Assembly: GCF_002198675.1 (NCBI RefSeq)
Contig: NZ_MWLL01000076.1
Coordinates: 1-33,976 of the forward strand
From: Kineosporia sp. R_H_3
Lineage (GTDB): Bacteria > Actinomycetota > Actinomycetes > Actinomycetales > Kineosporiaceae
Reading direction: 5' to 3'
Length of the DNA: 33,976 bases
In this document: positions 19,466 to 25,388 of the stretch, piece after piece
How positions within the stretch are numbered: position 1 is the first letter of the stretch
How the letters are laid out: each line of letters begins with the position of its first letter
The notes under the pieces: generated by a model
The model's input: the letters and a program-made list of their open reading frames with translations, nothing else
The model's database searches: none
What the model was told of the DNA's origin: nothing
Made by a program: the position numbers and the translations under genes

Positions 19466-22138
19466 GTGCCCAACGGACCGGTCCCGCCTCCCGAGGACGA
19501 CCCGCCGGTCGCGTACCCCGCGCACTGGGAGGCGGACGTCGTCCTGCGCGACGGCGGGACGGCGCACATGCGCCCGATCCGCCCGGACGACGCCGAGGCG
19601 CTCCAGCGCTTCCACCTCGCGCAGTCGCCGGAGTCGATCTACCTGCGGTTCTTCGCGCCCATGCCGCGGCTGTCGGACAAGGACCTGCACCGGTTCACCC
19701 ACGTCGACCACCTCGACCGGGTGGCGTTCGTCTGCACCGTCGGCGGCGAGATCCTCGGCGTCGGCCGCTACGACCGGACCGAGCCCACCGAGGCCGAGGT
19801 CGCCTTCAACATCTCCGACCACCACCACGGCCGCGGCATCGGGTCGGTGCTCCTCGAGCACCTCGCGGCGGCCGCCCGGGAGAACGGCGTGCACCGCTTC
19901 GTCGCGGAGGTGCTGCCGCAGAACCGCAAGATGATGGCGGTCTTCCGGGACGCCGGGTACGAGGTCAAGCACGCCTTCGACGACGGCGTGATCTCCCTCG
20001 AGTTCGACATCGACCCGACCGAGAAGTCCCTGGCCGTCATGGAGTCCCGCGAGCACCGCGCCGAGGCGCGCTCGGTGCACGCGCTGCTCAACCCGCGCTC
20101 CGTCGTCCTCGTCGGGGCCAGCCGGCACGAGGGCACCGTCGGCCACAAGCTCCTCGCGGACATGCTCGCCGCCGACTTCACCGGCGCGCTGCACGTCGTC
20201 CACCCGGAGGCGGACGCCGTCCTCGGCGTCCCCGCGTTCCGGCGCCTCGCCGACGTCCCGCCGCCGGTGGACCTCGCGATCATCGCCGTCCCCGCCGCCG
20301 CCGTCGTCGAGGTCGTCGAGGAGTGCGCCGCGGTCGGCGTCCGGGGCCTCGTCGTCGTCTCGGCCGGGTTCGCGGAGACCGGCCCCGAGGGCCTGGAACG
20401 GCAGCGCGCGCTCGTCCGGGTCGCGCGCGAGCACGGCATGCGGGTCGTCGGCCCGAACTCGTGGGGCGTCATCAACGCCGACCCCGAGGTGCGGCTCAAC
20501 GTCTCGCTCGCCTCGGTGCTGCCGACGCACGGCCGGTTCGGCCTCTTCAGCCAGTCCGGCGCGATCTCCGTCTCGGTGCTCGACGTCGCGCAGCAGCGCG
20601 GCGTGGGTCTGTCGACGTTCGTCTCCGCGGGCAACCGGGCGGACGTGTCCGGCAACGACTGCATGCAGTACTGGGAGGAGGACCCCGGCACCGACGTCGT
20701 GGGCCTCTACCTCGAGAGCGTCGGCAACCCGCGCAAGTTCTCCCGCATCGCCCGCCGGCTGTCGCGGACCAAGCCGGTCATCGTCGTGAAGTCGGGCGCC
20801 TCTCGGTTCAGCGCGACCCCGGGTCACGCCGTCCGGCCGAGCCGGGTGCCCAAGGCGGCGTTCAACGCGCTGCTGCGGCAGAGCGGCTGCATCCGGGTCG
20901 ACAACGTCCGCCAGCTCTTCGACGTCGCCCAGCTCGTGCTCCACCAGCCGCTGCCGTCGGGCAGCTGCGTCGCGGTCGTCGCGAACAGCGAGGCGCTCGC
21001 CGCGCTCACCGCCGACGCCTGCGTCGCCCGCAAGCTGGACGTCGTCCACGGGCCGGTCGCGCTGCCGACGCTCGCGGGCCCGGAGGACTTCAGGACGGCG
21101 CTCGAGGCGGCCTTCGCCGACGAGGACGTCGACGCCGTCGTCACCGCCTTCATGCCGCCGGTCGCGACCCACGCCGCCGAGGTGGCGCGGGTGCTCGCCG
21201 AGACCTCCGCGAAGGCCCCGATCCCTGTCGTCGCCTCGTTCCTCGGGATGAGCGGCATCCACGAGCAGCTCTCCGCGGGCCGCGTCGTCCCGACCTACCA
21301 GACGCCCGAGGAGGCCGTCCGGGCGCTCGCCGCGGCGACGAAGTACGGCCAGTGGCGCCGCCGGGACGCCGGCCCCCGGGTCGACCCCGCGGGCCTGGAC
21401 GTCGAGGGCGCGCGCACGTTCGTGGACGCCCTGCTCGCCCTCAACCCGGAGGGGCTCGAGCTCTCGCAGCAGCAGGCCGCCACCCTGCTCGGGTGCTACG
21501 GCGTCCGGCTCTGGCCGAGCATCCCGGTGACGACCGCCGAGGAGGCGGTCGCCGCCGCCATGGAGGTCGGGTTCCCGGTGGCGCTCAAGGCGACCGCGCC
21601 GCACCTGCGGCACCGGGTCGACCTCGGCGGCGTCCGCCTCGACATCGCCTCGGTCGGTGAGCTCTCCGAGACCTTCGTCCGCATGCGGGACACCCTCGGC
21701 CCGCTCGGCGGGGAGGACCTCGTCGTCCAGGCGATGGCCCCGACCGGCGTCGCGTGCGTCGTCCGCTCGGCCGAGGACCCGCTCTTCGGCCCGGTCGTCT
21801 CGTTCGGCCTCGCCGGCGACGCGACCGCCCTGCTCGGCGACTGGGCGCACCGGATCCCGCCGCTGTGCGAGCAGGACGTCGTCGACCTGGTCCGCACCGT
21901 GAAGGCGGCACCGAAGCTCTTCGGCCACCGCGGCGCCGGTGAGGCCGACGTCGACGCGCTCCACGACGTCCTCGCCCGGGTCTCCTGCCTCGCTCTCGAC
22001 GTCCCCGAGATCGCCGAGCTCGACCTCAACCCGGTCGTCGCCGCCGACCGCGGTGCCGCCGTGCTCGGCGCGGTCATCCGGCTCGCACCCGACGAGGGGC
22101 GCACCGACGCCGGGGTGCGCGAGCTGACGACGGGCTGA
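19466..22138 (+). CDS. Pat-like bifunctional GNAT acetyltransferase / NDP-forming acyl-CoA synthetase-like protein
   Basis: This is an 890-residue multidomain protein. The N-terminal GNAT domain covers about 22-185, with motif A HHHGRGIGSVLLEHL at 119-133. A CoA-binding Rossmann domain follows (about 203-300, LNPRSVVLVGASRHEGTVG), then a succinyl-CoA-ligase-like domain (about 305-480, FSQSGAISVSVLD) and an ATP-grasp domain (about 650-885, ending IAELDLNPVV). Proteins of this type acetylate the catalytic lysine of AMP-forming acyl-CoA synthetases and so switch them off. The GNAT-first order is the arrangement known from Streptomyces, the reverse of Salmonella Pat. His454 sits where NDP-forming ligases carry the phosphohistidine, but the following loop is altered (GHAVRPSRVP instead of SHTGxxAGSD), so ligase activity is doubtful. 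No cyclic-nucleotide domain is present. The start is GTG at 19466, seven bases after TAGTCT. Confidence 0.9.
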   Translation: MPNGPVPPPEDDPPVAYPAHWEADVVLRDGGTAHMRPIRPDDAEALQRFHLAQSPESIYLRFFAPMPRLSDKDLHRFTHVDHLDRVAFVCTVGGEILGVGRYDRTEPTEAEVAFNISDHHHGRGIGSVLLEHLAAAARENGVHRFVAEVLPQNRKMMAVFRDAGYEVKHAFDDGVISLEFDIDPTEKSLAVMESREHRAEARSVHALLNPRSVVLVGASRHEGTVGHKLLADMLAADFTGALHVVHPEADAVLGVPAFRRLADVPPPVDLAIIAVPAAAVVEVVEECAAVGVRGLVVVSAGFAETGPEGLERQRALVRVAREHGMRVVGPNSWGVINADPEVRLNVSLASVLPTHGRFGLFSQSGAISVSVLDVAQQRGVGLSTFVSAGNRADVSGNDCMQYWEEDPGTDVVGLYLESVGNPRKFSRIARRLSRTKPVIVVKSGASRFSATPGHAVRPSRVPKAAFNALLRQSGCIRVDNVRQLFDVAQLVLHQPLPSGSCVAVVANSEALAALTADACVARKLDVVHGPVALPTLAGPEDFRTALEAAFADEDVDAVVTAFMPPVATHAAEVARVLAETSAKAPIPVVASFLGMSGIHEQLSAGRVVPTYQTPEEAVRALAAATKYGQWRRRDAGPRVDPAGLDVEGARTFVDALLALNPEGLELSQQQAATLLGCYGVRLWPSIPVTTAEEAVAAAMEVGFPVALKATAPHLRHRVDLGGVRLDIASVGELSETFVRMRDTLGPLGGEDLVVQAMAPTGVACVVRSAEDPLFGPVVSFGLAGDATALLGDWAHRIPPLCEQDVVDLVRTVKAAPKLFGHRGAGEADVDALHDVLARVSCLALDVPEIAELDLNPVVAADRGAAVLGAVIRLAPDEGRTDAGVRELTTG

Positions 22139-22748: not shown

Positions 22749-23165
22749 TCAGACGACGGCGAGCGTGACCTCGATGTTGCCGCGGGTCGCGTTGCTGTAC
22801 GGGCAGACCTGGTGGGCCTTCTCGAGCAGGTCCTGCGCGGCGGCCTTGTCGAGGTTCGGCGCGTGCAGGTCGAGCTCGACGGCGAGGCCGAAGCCGCCCG
22901 CACCGTTCGAGCCGATGGAGACCCGGGTCGTGATCTCGGTGCCGTCGACGTCGAGCTTGTCGCGGCGGGCGACGACCTTGACGGCCGAGTGGAAGCAGGC
23001 CGCGTAGCCGGCGGCGAAGAGCTGCTCGGGGTTCGTCGCGCCCCCGGGGCCGCCGAGGCCCGCGGGCATCCTCACGTCGGTGTCGACGAGGCCGTCGTCG
23101 GAGCGGACGTGGCCGTTGCGGCCGTCGCCGGTCGCGGTGGCCACGGCGGTGTAGAGGGCGTCCAT
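22749..23165 (-). CDS. ohr: organic hydroperoxide resistance protein Ohr
   Basis: This 138-residue OsmC/Ohr-family thiol peroxidase reduces organic and lipid hydroperoxides. Its two catalytic cysteines are in the expected places: Cys57 (GYAACFHSA) and Cys121 (HQVCPYSNATRGN). Other family marks are the N-terminal LYTAVATATGDGRNG and TNPEQLFAAGYAACF. The VCPYSNATRGN signature is specific to Ohr rather than OsmC. The start is ATG at 23165 with a purine-rich AAAGGAAG ribosome site. The gene is divergent from ohrR, and the intergenic palindrome at 23194-23207 is the likely repressor site. The hairpin at 22694 ends its transcript. Confidence 0.95.
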   Translation of the reverse strand: MDALYTAVATATGDGRNGHVRSDDGLVDTDVRMPAGLGGPGGATNPEQLFAAGYAACFHSAVKVVARRDKLDVDGTEITTRVSIGSNGAGGFGLAVELDLHAPNLDKAAAQDLLEKAHQVCPYSNATRGNIEVTLAVV

Positions 23166-23193
23166 GGGACTTCCTTTCGTTGGATTCTCAGAG

Positions 23194-23207
23194 GATCGTG
23201 CACAATT
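23194..23207. promoter_or_regulatory. OhrR operator between ohr and ohrR
   Basis: GATCGTGCACAATT is a near-palindrome centred on GTG|CAC at 23200/23201. On the plus strand CACAAT (23201-23206) can serve as the ohrR -10 element; on the minus strand CACGAT can serve as the ohr -10. A 13-base exact copy in inverse orientation precedes the peroxidase gene at 24246-24258. OhrR binding is inferred from position and sharing. Confidence 0.75.
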
Positions 23208-23265
23208 GGTCGAGCACGTGCGGTGCGGATGTTCGTGGGGGCGGGCGCAGGGCGAGGAGGTCGCG

Positions 23266-23745
23266 GTGGCGGGCAGGACGACGAGGCGTGGTGCGCGGGC
23301 CGCGGGGCAGGGGCCGGTGCTGGACGACCTCCTGTGCTTCTCGCTCTACACCGCGAGCCGCGCGGTGACGCGGGCGTACGGGCCGGTCCTCGCCGGGCTC
23401 GGGCTCACGTACCCGCAGTGGGTGACCATGGTCGCCCTGTGGGAGTCCGAGGAGCCGCTCGCGGTGGGGGAGCTGGGCCGCCGGCTGCACCTCGACAGCG
23501 GCACCCTCACGCCGCTGCTCAAGCGTCTGGAGGCCGACGGGCTCGTCACCCGCACCCGGGACCTCGTCGACGAGCGCCGGGTGCTCGTCGCCGTGACCCC
23601 CGCCGGCGCCGCGCTGCGCAAGGACGCGTGCGACGTCCCGGCGCGGATCGCGGAGGCGTTCGGCGGGGACGCCGCCGCGGTCCTGGCGCTCAAGCGTCAG
23701 CTCGATCAGCTCGTCGAGGTCGTCGAGTCGTCCTCGCCCGGCTGA
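23266..23745 (+). CDS. ohrR: MarR-family organic-peroxide sensor repressor OhrR
   Basis: This is a 159-residue MarR-type winged-helix repressor. Cys24 in LLCFSLYTASR aligns with the peroxide-sensing cysteine of OhrR (Cys15 in B. subtilis). The LTYPQWVTMVALWE segment (47-60) and the recognition helix plus wing (LHLDSGTLTPLLKRLEADGLVTRTRD, in overlapping parts; DERRVLVAVT) are classic. A second cysteine, Cys122, in the C-terminal helical region might serve as a resolving thiol as in two-Cys OhrR; this needs alignment. GTG at 23266 is chosen because GAGGAGG lies five bases upstream and the protein then has the usual length; the frame is open further upstream to 23164 but would cross the operator. 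The gene is divergent from ohr, and its last 40 bases overlap the convergent peroxidase gene. Confidence 0.93.
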   Translation: MAGRTTRRGARAAGQGPVLDDLLCFSLYTASRAVTRAYGPVLAGLGLTYPQWVTMVALWESEEPLAVGELGRRLHLDSGTLTPLLKRLEADGLVTRTRDLVDERRVLVAVTPAGAALRKDACDVPARIAEAFGGDAAAVLALKRQLDQLVEVVESSSPG

Positions 23746-24239
23746 GCCGACCGGGCGAGCAGCTCCTCGACGATCGGTGCGAGGTCGTCCGGGTCGGTGG
23801 CGGGCGCGAAGCGCCGCACCGTGACGCCGTCCGGCTCGACGAGGAACTTCGTGAAGTTCCACTTGACCGTCGACCCGAGCAGGCCCTTCGAGCGGGCCTT
23901 GAGGAACCGGAACACCGGGTGCGTGCCGCTGCCGTTGACGTCGACCTTCGTCGACAGCGGGAACGTCACGCCGAAGTTCACCCTGCACTCCTGCGCGATG
24001 ACCTCGTCGGAGCCCGGCTCCTGGTGCGCGAACTGGTCGCACGGGAACCCGACGACGGCCAGCCCGCGGGGGCCGTACTCCTCGTGCAGCTTCTGCAGGG
24101 TCGCGTACTGGGGGGCGAACCCGCAGTGCCGCGCCGTGTTGACGACGAGCACGGGCCGCCCCGCGAACTGCGCGAACGAGACCTCCTCGCCGGTGTTCGA
24201 CGTGTACGTCAGGTCCTGCAGGCTCGTTGGCTCGGACAT
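23706..24239 (-). CDS. glutathione peroxidase-family thiol peroxidase
   Basis: This is a 177-residue peroxidase with a thioredoxin fold. Peroxidatic Cys39 is in VVNTARHCGFAPQY, the GFPCDQFAHQEPGS motif (64-77) carries Cys67, and the VKWNFTKFLV segment supplies the catalytic Trp-Asn. Cys85 (AQECRVNFGVTF) is at the resolving position of two-Cys, thioredoxin-dependent enzymes. That suits an actinobacterium, which is likely to use mycothiol and thioredoxin rather than glutathione. ATG at 24239 is preferred over an in-frame GTG at 24254 because the latter lies inside the shared operator; CACAAT at leaderless spacing precedes the ATG. The gene is convergent with ohrR with a 40-base overlap. Confidence 0.92.
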   Translation of the reverse strand: MSEPTSLQDLTYTSNTGEEVSFAQFAGRPVLVVNTARHCGFAPQYATLQKLHEEYGPRGLAVVGFPCDQFAHQEPGSDEVIAQECRVNFGVTFPLSTKVDVNGSGTHPVFRFLKARSKGLLGSTVKWNFTKFLVEPDGVTVRRFAPATDPDDLAPIVEELLARSAQPGEDDSTTSTS

Positions 24240-24244
24240 GATTC

Positions 24245-24258
24245 GATTGTGCACGATC
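24245..24258. promoter_or_regulatory. second OhrR-type operator, at the peroxidase promoter
   Basis: Read on the minus strand, GATCGTGCACAAT is identical over 13 bases to the ohr/ohrR box and extends to 14 of 16 matches. CACAAT within it lies six bases before the peroxidase ATG at 24239, so the box covers the -10 element. Confidence 0.75.
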
Positions 24259-24303
24259 TAATTCGGGTCGGCAACCGCGCAGGGCGGCCGCCGGCCGGCC
24301 GGC

Positions 24304-25335
24304 TCAGCTCGTGGACGTGCGCAGCGCGCGACCCTCCGCGGCGGCGTCCCGCTGCTGCGCGGCGACGTCACCGATGGTGCGCTGGAACGCGTCGACCGCG
24401 GCGACGATCTCCTGGATCTCGCCGATGGCGCGGGTCGCGTGCCGGGTGTCCTGGAGGATCGCCTCGACCTTCTGGGCGATGTCGCCGGTCGCGCGCGACG
24501 TCTCGTTCGCCAGCTCCTTGACCTCGTTGGCGACGACGGCGAAGCCGCGCCCGGTGTCACCGGCGCGGGCGGCCTCGATGGTCGCGTTGAGCGCCAGGAG
24601 GTTCGTCTGGTCGGCGATCGAGGTGATGAACTGGACGACCTTGCCGATCTCGGAGCTGCTCTCGCCGAGCTTCTCGATGGCCGACGCGGTCGACTCGGCC
24701 GCGGTCACGGCGCTGCGCGCCGTCTGCGACATCTCGGTGCTCACGTGGGCGAGCTCGTCGGCGCTGGCGCTGAGCCGGTCGACGAAGCTCAGCGCGGACG
24801 TCGTGAGCGTCCGCTCGGCGTCGATGTCGAGCAGCGCGCCGGCGACCCGCACCGGGGTGCCGTCGGGCGCCCGGCGCGTGCTGCCGCTGGCCCGGAACCA
24901 GCGGTACTGGCCGTTCTTCAGCTGCAGCCGGTACTTCACGTCGTACGGGGTCCGGCCGCTGCGGTCGTTGAGGTGCGCGCCGAAGGCGTCGAGCACCCAG
25001 CCCGAGTCCTCCGGGTGCAACCGCGACGCCCAGCTGTCGAGGACGTTCGGGAAGTCGCTCGTGTCGCGGTAGCCGAGCATCGCGCGGAAGTGGTCCGACC
25101 ACCAGAACTCGTTGTTCGGGTTGACCGGGTCGCCGGCGATCACGGACATGTCCCACAGGCCGATGTTCGAGGCGTCGATCATGAGCTCGTAGCGCTCGTT
25201 GACGAACGTCAGCTCCTCGCGCAGCGCCGACACCTCCGCCTCGAGCGCGGTGACGCGGTGGTCGTCGAGCGACGGCTGGGCCTCGGCCCTGGTGGCGAGG
25301 CCGGTCGTCGGGGTCGTCTCGCGGCGGAAGAACAT
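24304..25335 (-). CDS. soluble PAS-domain methyl-accepting chemotaxis-type signalling protein
   Basis: This 343-residue cytoplasmic receptor-like protein has no signal peptide or transmembrane helix. Residues about 25-50 form a short coiled coil. A PAS_3-type sensor domain spans about 50-175 ([39 protein letters not shown]). An MCP signalling domain spans about 185-335, with the conserved hairpin tip [36 protein letters not shown] in overlapping parts at 240-275. It should bind CheW/CheA if the organism has them; no other chemotaxis gene is in this window. The cofactor or ligand of the PAS domain is unknown. The start is ATG at 25335, preceded by GGAGAGG about seven bases away. It is downstream of valS but separated by a strong hairpin. 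Confidence 0.88.
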
Positions 25336-25388
25336 GTGGGGCCTCTCCGGAACGGGGCAGGTCGGGCTGCGTCCGCCCTTCATCGGCG

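Follow-up and report, generated by a model that had tools for sequence, protein, structure and literature searches.

We examined a cluster of three genes, ohr, ohrR and gpx, and two near-identical DNA boxes at their 5' ends, in a 33,976-nucleotide stretch of the Kineosporia sp. R_H_3 genome (contig NZ_MWLL01000076.1, hereafter the window). The ohr gene (22749–23165, minus strand) encodes an Ohr-family organic hydroperoxide reductase of 138 aa with an OsmC domain (PF02566) and a score of 174.5 bits, above the cutoff of 88.85, against the Ohr subfamily model TIGR03561. Its two cysteines, Cys57 and Cys121, are presumably the catalytic pair. Divergent to ohr lies ohrR (23266–23745, plus strand), annotated as a MarR-family OhrR repressor based on the MarR domain (PF01047) and phmmer matches to OhrR 2pfb and 1z91. 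The GTG at 23266, downstream of an AGGAGG (23255–23260, plus strand) that is the probable ribosome-binding site, is most likely its start. The third gene, gpx (23706–24239, minus strand), encodes a predicted two-Cys peroxidase of the glutathione peroxidase family (177 aa; GSHPx PF00255, 120.5 bits), and the ATG at 24239 is most likely its start rather than the longer GTG of the mechanical open reading frame list. The genes ohrR and gpx converge and share 40 bp at their 3' ends (23706–23745), and the matched stretches overlap in the sister genome G011 too.

An earlier note on this DNA, made without database searches, had reported near-identical boxes between ohr and ohrR and before gpx. Both were found again: the 13-mer GATCGTGCACAAT is present at 23194–23206 on the plus strand and at 24246–24258 on the minus strand, and the note's count of 14 of 16 shared bases for the extended match was right by direct reading. 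The note had also judged the match unlikely to be due to chance. A chance repeat was rejected on the basis of the genome-wide counts together with 100 dinucleotide shuffles of the window, which contained 0 exact matches to the 13-mer. When the genome (7,260,683 bases) was searched, the 12-bp core ATYGTGCACRAT had exactly two copies, both at this locus, and the read-backwards control had 0. The 14-mer GATYGTGCACRATY gave 71 forward matches genome-wide at ≤2 mismatches, and therefore only near-exact matches are informative. As the core is a near-perfect palindrome (ATCGTG followed by CACAAT), little can be read into the second copy being "inverted".

OhrR relatives were collected by a protein similarity search of 198 genomes of the order Actinomycetales, and the surroundings of all 90 listed matches outside the genus were read. 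Some of these rows (G069, G181 and perhaps G020) had first been picked with the core already known alongside; the counts given here are those of the complete 90 OhrR and 91 gpx rows. Counts for the order and for gpx leave out the window genome and its sister and use the best match per locus. An ohr neighbour was present in 24 of the 90 OhrR rows. Within 200 bp upstream of these ohr-linked ohrR genes, the core was found in 22/24 cases at ≤2 mismatches and in 24/24 at ≤3 mismatches, while shuffles of 20 such upstream regions reached these thresholds in 0.5% and 8.5% of cases, respectively. Among OhrR rows with neither ohr nor gpx nearby, the core at ≤2 mismatches was found in 2/65. Because the core marks the ohr-linked ohrR promoters of the order, the two boxes in the window are read here as predicted OhrR operators.

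A 27-letter matrix was derived from 20 ohr-ohrR sites outside the genus, 19 of them from OhrR rows of the order and one from Mobilicoccus pelagius (L071). The matrix gave 30 to 45 bits on five ohr-linked regions absent from the training set, and the consensus of the 20 aligned sites was GTTGTGCACAATTGAATTGTGTGCAA, with ACAATTNAATTGT as its middle. The available text on Streptomyces avermitilis OhrR describes a protected stretch of 28 nt holding two 13-nt boxes of the consensus ACAATTNAATTGT (PMC6034001). Based on this shared middle and the two boxes in the protected stretch, the core ATTGTGCACAAT and the published ACAATTNAATTGT probably represent two overlapping registers of a single OhrR site that repeats every 15 bp.

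On the window, the gpx box was the best place for this matrix, with 24.2 bits at 24231–24257, a score reached by 0 of 2000 shuffles. Its mirror arm at 24246–24272 scored 16.9 bits and the next unrelated place 2.2 bits. The predicted operator 2 at gpx (24231–24272, minus strand; core 24246–24257, 13-mer 24246–24258) carries AATT-type arms on both sides. The predicted operator 1 between ohr and ohrR (23194–23206, plus strand; 12-bp core 23195–23206, ATCGTGCACAAT) had 18.4 bits with a core matrix (0/2000 shuffles) and −4.1 bits with the 27-letter matrix. Judged by the scores of 24.2 versus −4.1 bits and by the AATT-type arms, the gpx site is the more complete of the two predicted operators and the ohr-ohrR site keeps the 12-bp core only, a point that the earlier note had missed.

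The same note had placed the CACAAT part of the box at the −10 position of both ohrR and gpx. This fits gpx, for which the candidate promoter (24246–24274, minus strand) consists of TTGCCG (24274–24269), a spacer of 17 nt and CACAAT (24251–24246), agrees with 8 of 12 consensus letters and ends 6 nt before the ATG. For ohrR the fit was weak, with 6 of 12 letters. Because of the short distance between CACAAT and the ATG, and since no ribosome-binding site is visible before the latter, the natural reading would be a leaderless gpx mRNA with the operator over the −10. The candidate ohr promoter (23184–23213, minus strand), composed of TCGACC (23213–23208), 18 nt and GAGAAT (23189–23184), also has 8 of 12 consensus letters, and the ohr box would sit within its spacer. 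It was graded weak because its −35 letters differ in G011 and a stricter scan did not return it.

The sister genome G011 holds the same two exact copies of the core. Over the compared stretch the two genomes are 89% identical, and a 47-bp indel lies immediately ahead of the gpx promoter. Two runs are identical in G011: 43 bp that start at the candidate gpx −35 TTGCCG, include the box and end in the third gpx codon, and 26 bp that reach from the ohr box across the candidate ohr −10.

We then compared the regions upstream of 168 gpx rows outside the genus, made up of 90 order rows (of 91) and 78 named loci (of 80); three stretches shorter than 80 bases (L024, L083 and one from the order) were dropped. 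Matrix sites of ≥10 bits were found in 20/41 rows with an ohrR-like neighbour vs 1/127 rows without (Fisher p = 1e-13), and the plain core at 3 mismatches in 25/41 vs 4/127. The exception among the 127 was the gpx of Austwickia chelonae (L074), which has a site of 36.5 bits at about −73 and no ohrR in the fetched stretch. The single ohrR match of A. chelonae (L257) lies outside the stretch around gpx and has its own site, and it is possible that this gpx is controlled from a distance. The core ATTGTGCACAAT was also present before gpx-ohrR pairs in one Halomonas and two Marinobacter, and in Actinotalea sp. M2MS4P-6 (L028) the exact core lies between divergent ohrR and gpx. The Actinotalea gpx is 64% identical to that of the window; unlike the window, the fetched Actinotalea stretch gave no ohr match.

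The earlier note had called gpx unusual as an OhrR target. As a general statement this was too strong, because the OhrR homolog OspR regulates gpx in Pseudomonas aeruginosa, as stated in the available text of PMC4999210, and an ohrR-like gene stood beside gpx at 39/80 loci fetched by gpx similarity. The ohrR-like neighbours in that set were found in Bacteroidota, Spirochaetota, Pseudomonadota, Bacillota, Chloroflexota and Actinomycetota. Within the order the link was rare, with an ohrR-like neighbour at 2/91 gpx loci outside the genus, one of them a weak match of 35% identity. In genome G044 (L100), ohrR immediately precedes a gpx that points the same way, and an OhrR-type site of 33.8 bits lies before ohrR.

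On the OhrR tree, gpx linkage needs 8 changes, at least 3 of which are forced by well-supported branches; therefore, the link between ohrR and gpx was gained or lost repeatedly. The only firm grouping of the window OhrR is with its sister. The backbone of the tree was unresolved and the bootstrap not settled, and on this backbone the rows nearest to the window OhrR by tree path were ohr-linked rows of the order and Actinotalea. With up to 18 candidates scored per genome, no OhrR match at E 1e-25 was found in 11 of the 13 genomes of the family, that is, in all except G000 and G011. In the genus member G012, whose genome is 88% complete, the matching stretch starts at base 31 of a contig. The pattern in the family may hint at gain, possibly horizontal, or loss of the cluster. 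Six OhrR-like genes of the order without ohr or gpx nearby (L249, L228, L242, L251, L147 and L221) have a palindrome other than the core upstream, TTAGTGYACTAA or a close form of it. All six fall within one well-supported clade of 31 rows, and they perhaps encode a paralogous regulator with its own box.

The protein sequences were compared with solved structures. For the window OhrR, the closest were OhrR 2pfb/2pex and the organic hydroperoxide regulator 1z91 (phmmer; 2pfb E 8.7e-34, 1z91 E 3.8e-30), and the score against the Vibrio-type OhrR equivalog model was below cutoff (139.2 of 200 bits). In OhrR proteins the reactive N-terminal Cys sits in an LCFxLY motif, and in the two-Cys subtype a second Cys occupies the position of Xanthomonas campestris Cys127. 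Cys24 of the window OhrR fits the first of these positions: it lines up with the N-terminal Cys in 2pfb, a Cys kept in 104/104 aligned OhrR rows, and by this alignment it would be the sensing Cys. The second Cys of the two-Cys subtype was not found at its alignment column, where the window OhrR has Glu; an extra Cys122 aligns instead with residue 119, a Gly, in a column where Cys is rare among the 104 rows. Based on these two columns, the window OhrR would be filed as a one-Cys type with an odd extra Cys122. No second close OhrR was found in the genome, the next match having E 1.3e-10 vs 5.1e-100 for ohrR.

In the Gpx protein, Cys39, Cys67 and Cys85 are in register with yeast Hyr1 (3cmi, E 1.8e-48), as are FPCDQF and Trp127 (WNF at 127) within the GSHPx domain. 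We take the peroxidatic Cys, Gln, Trp and Asn and the resolving Cys to have the same roles as in Hyr1. Based on the three cysteines in register, Gpx looks like a two-Cys enzyme of the thioredoxin/mycoredoxin type, for which thioredoxin, mycoredoxin or mycothiol would be candidate electron donors. This agrees with the earlier description of a two-Cys peroxidase, since the Cys pair C39 and C85 of two-Cys GPx proteins is present. The 14 loci with a gpx at least 60% identical to that of the window comprise 8 actinobacterial loci, 3 from "uncultured bacterium" and 3 from other phyla.

Given the three genes, the two boxes and the presence of such boxes at other ohr-ohrR and ohrR-gpx promoters and in the sister species, it is highly probable that ohr, ohrR and gpx form an organic-hydroperoxide regulon under one OhrR acting through two operators, as the earlier note had proposed, and gpx is very probably a direct OhrR target. 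Under this reading, reduced OhrR dimers would occupy both the operator between the divergent ohr and ohrR genes and the operator over the gpx −10 and start. Judging from the positions of the sites, bound OhrR would keep RNA polymerase off. We infer OhrR binding, repression and release from sequence; an organic hydroperoxide would oxidise Cys24 and thereby release OhrR, after which ohr, ohrR and gpx would be transcribed jointly, and Ohr and the two-Cys Gpx would both reduce the peroxide.

Several of our results weigh against this interpretation. The −4.1 bits of operator 1 were equalled or exceeded by 205/2000 shuffles, and with that score the site is missing the second unit that relatives have in their wider OhrR site. 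Of the 20 sites used for training, 18 outscored the gpx site with its 24.2 bits (leave-one-out range 13.7 to 49.4 bits), and the 15-letter ACAATTNAATTGT-like part of the gpx site was matched by 2/2000 shuffles. A stricter consensus scan of 23100–24400 found no promoter-like site at its threshold. As for the comparative counts, the 24 ohr-linked rows include several from one genus and so are not independent of each other, and 21 of the 41 ohrR-linked gpx rows, many of them Bacteroidales, stayed below 10 bits; Mobilicoccus L071 and L100 are among these 21 and have the site before ohrR instead. None of the 91 gpx loci counted for the order outside the genus had a matrix site directly upstream of gpx (0/91). 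The exact core was present in 61 of the 198 genomes, and an ohrR gene was found at 3 of 30 pattern-fetched loci, so that the core also occurs away from ohrR.

The last two observations each favour a different explanation. If OhrR can bind the gpx box and another regulator mainly drives gpx, the influence of OhrR would be minor; an extracytoplasmic function (ECF) sigma factor of the SigH kind, for example, controls mycothiol peroxidase in Corynebacterium. The lack of a site directly upstream of the other gpx genes of the order is in line with this, as is the lower-affinity binding of P. aeruginosa OhrR to the gpx promoter, whose relevance there the authors doubt in the available text of PMC4999210. 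We consider this unlikely: of the two operators, that of gpx is the more complete, it overlaps the best promoter candidate, and the genome search found no second close OhrR or OspR. The presence of the core away from ohrR would also be expected if a regulator other than OhrR, of the MarR type or of another palindrome-binding kind, acted on the boxes, and at first sight ATTGTGCACAAT is indeed unlike the published box ACAATTNAATTGT (PMC6034001, available text). However, the core is found at 22 of the 24 ohr-linked ohrR promoters, the consensus GTTGTGCACAATTGAATTGTGTGCAA contains ACAATTNAATTGT, and the gpx site is extended in a like manner. It was the recurrence of the core at ohr-ohrR promoters of other genomes in the order that led us to judge a different regulator very improbable.

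Least probable of all is that the repeat has no function, being due to chance or to local duplication of the ohr operator. The copies lie 1 kb apart and local copying is conceivable, but the gpx copy has operator features that are absent from the ohr copy, and both copies are kept in G011 in a region that is 89% identical, the gpx copy lying within the 43-bp identical run. A further idea concerns the transcripts rather than the boxes. Non-contiguous operons are a known kind of gene arrangement, and a transcript from the gpx promoter might run antisense through ohrR and then sense into ohr. The idea comes from the 40-bp overlap of the 3' ends and from a scan of 23100–24400 that found no terminator-like site, and we regard it as improbable. 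If true, induction of gpx by peroxide would dampen new OhrR production and boost ohr, a latch on top of the shared operators.

The proposed control of ohr, ohrR and gpx by one OhrR can be compared with two known systems. In P. aeruginosa, OspR answers organic hydroperoxides and also binds the ohr promoter, and the OspR-gpx and OhrR-ohr pairs resemble the regulon predicted for the window in having OhrR-family thiol repressors on gpx and ohr, with cross-binding and a response to organic hydroperoxides. In contrast to the one OhrR beside both genes in the window, P. aeruginosa has two separate regulators, and its boxes, AATTCAA-N-TTGAATT and AATTCNNGCAC-N-GTGCNNGAATT, differ from the window core (PMC4999210, available text). 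S. avermitilis, with ohrR-ohrB2, has an actinobacterial OhrR over divergent ohr and ohrR promoters, as proposed for the window. Its OhrR differs in that it is reported also to bind the ohrB1, aveR, pykA2 and tkt2/ctaB promoters, and "glutathione peroxidase" occurs 0 times in the available text of that report (PMC6034001). Among the loci compared here, M. pelagius (L071) likewise has ohrR, ohr and gpx together with an OhrR-type site before ohrR; unlike in the window, all three genes lie in the same direction behind one site, with none directly before gpx. Searches of open-licence PMC papers listed no report on OhrR control of a glutathione peroxidase in actinobacteria.

Two other genes of the window were noted. 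The gene adjoining gpx (24304–25383) encodes a protein with PAS and methyl-accepting-chemotaxis signalling domains; it has 30 DNA matches in the genome, short ones counted, and the genome seems to have many chemoreceptors. The gene at 19466–22138 encodes a GNAT acetyltransferase fused to CoA-binding, succinyl-CoA-ligase-like and ATP-grasp domains, presumably a protein of the PatA-like kind.

Control of ohr and of gpx by OhrR-type repressors is already known elsewhere, and the arrangement described here is mostly expected. Slightly new is that one OhrR would serve ohr and gpx through separate operators, which was seen at 0 of the 91 other gpx loci of the order. If the interpretation is correct, the OhrR regulon of this lineage would reach beyond ohr to another peroxidase family that is unrelated to it, which would suggest that a single protein is able to cover the tasks that Pseudomonas divides between OhrR and OspR. 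The overlapping registers of ATTGTGCACAAT and ACAATTNAATTGT would, moreover, clarify the OhrR operator of the order and may aid operator prediction.
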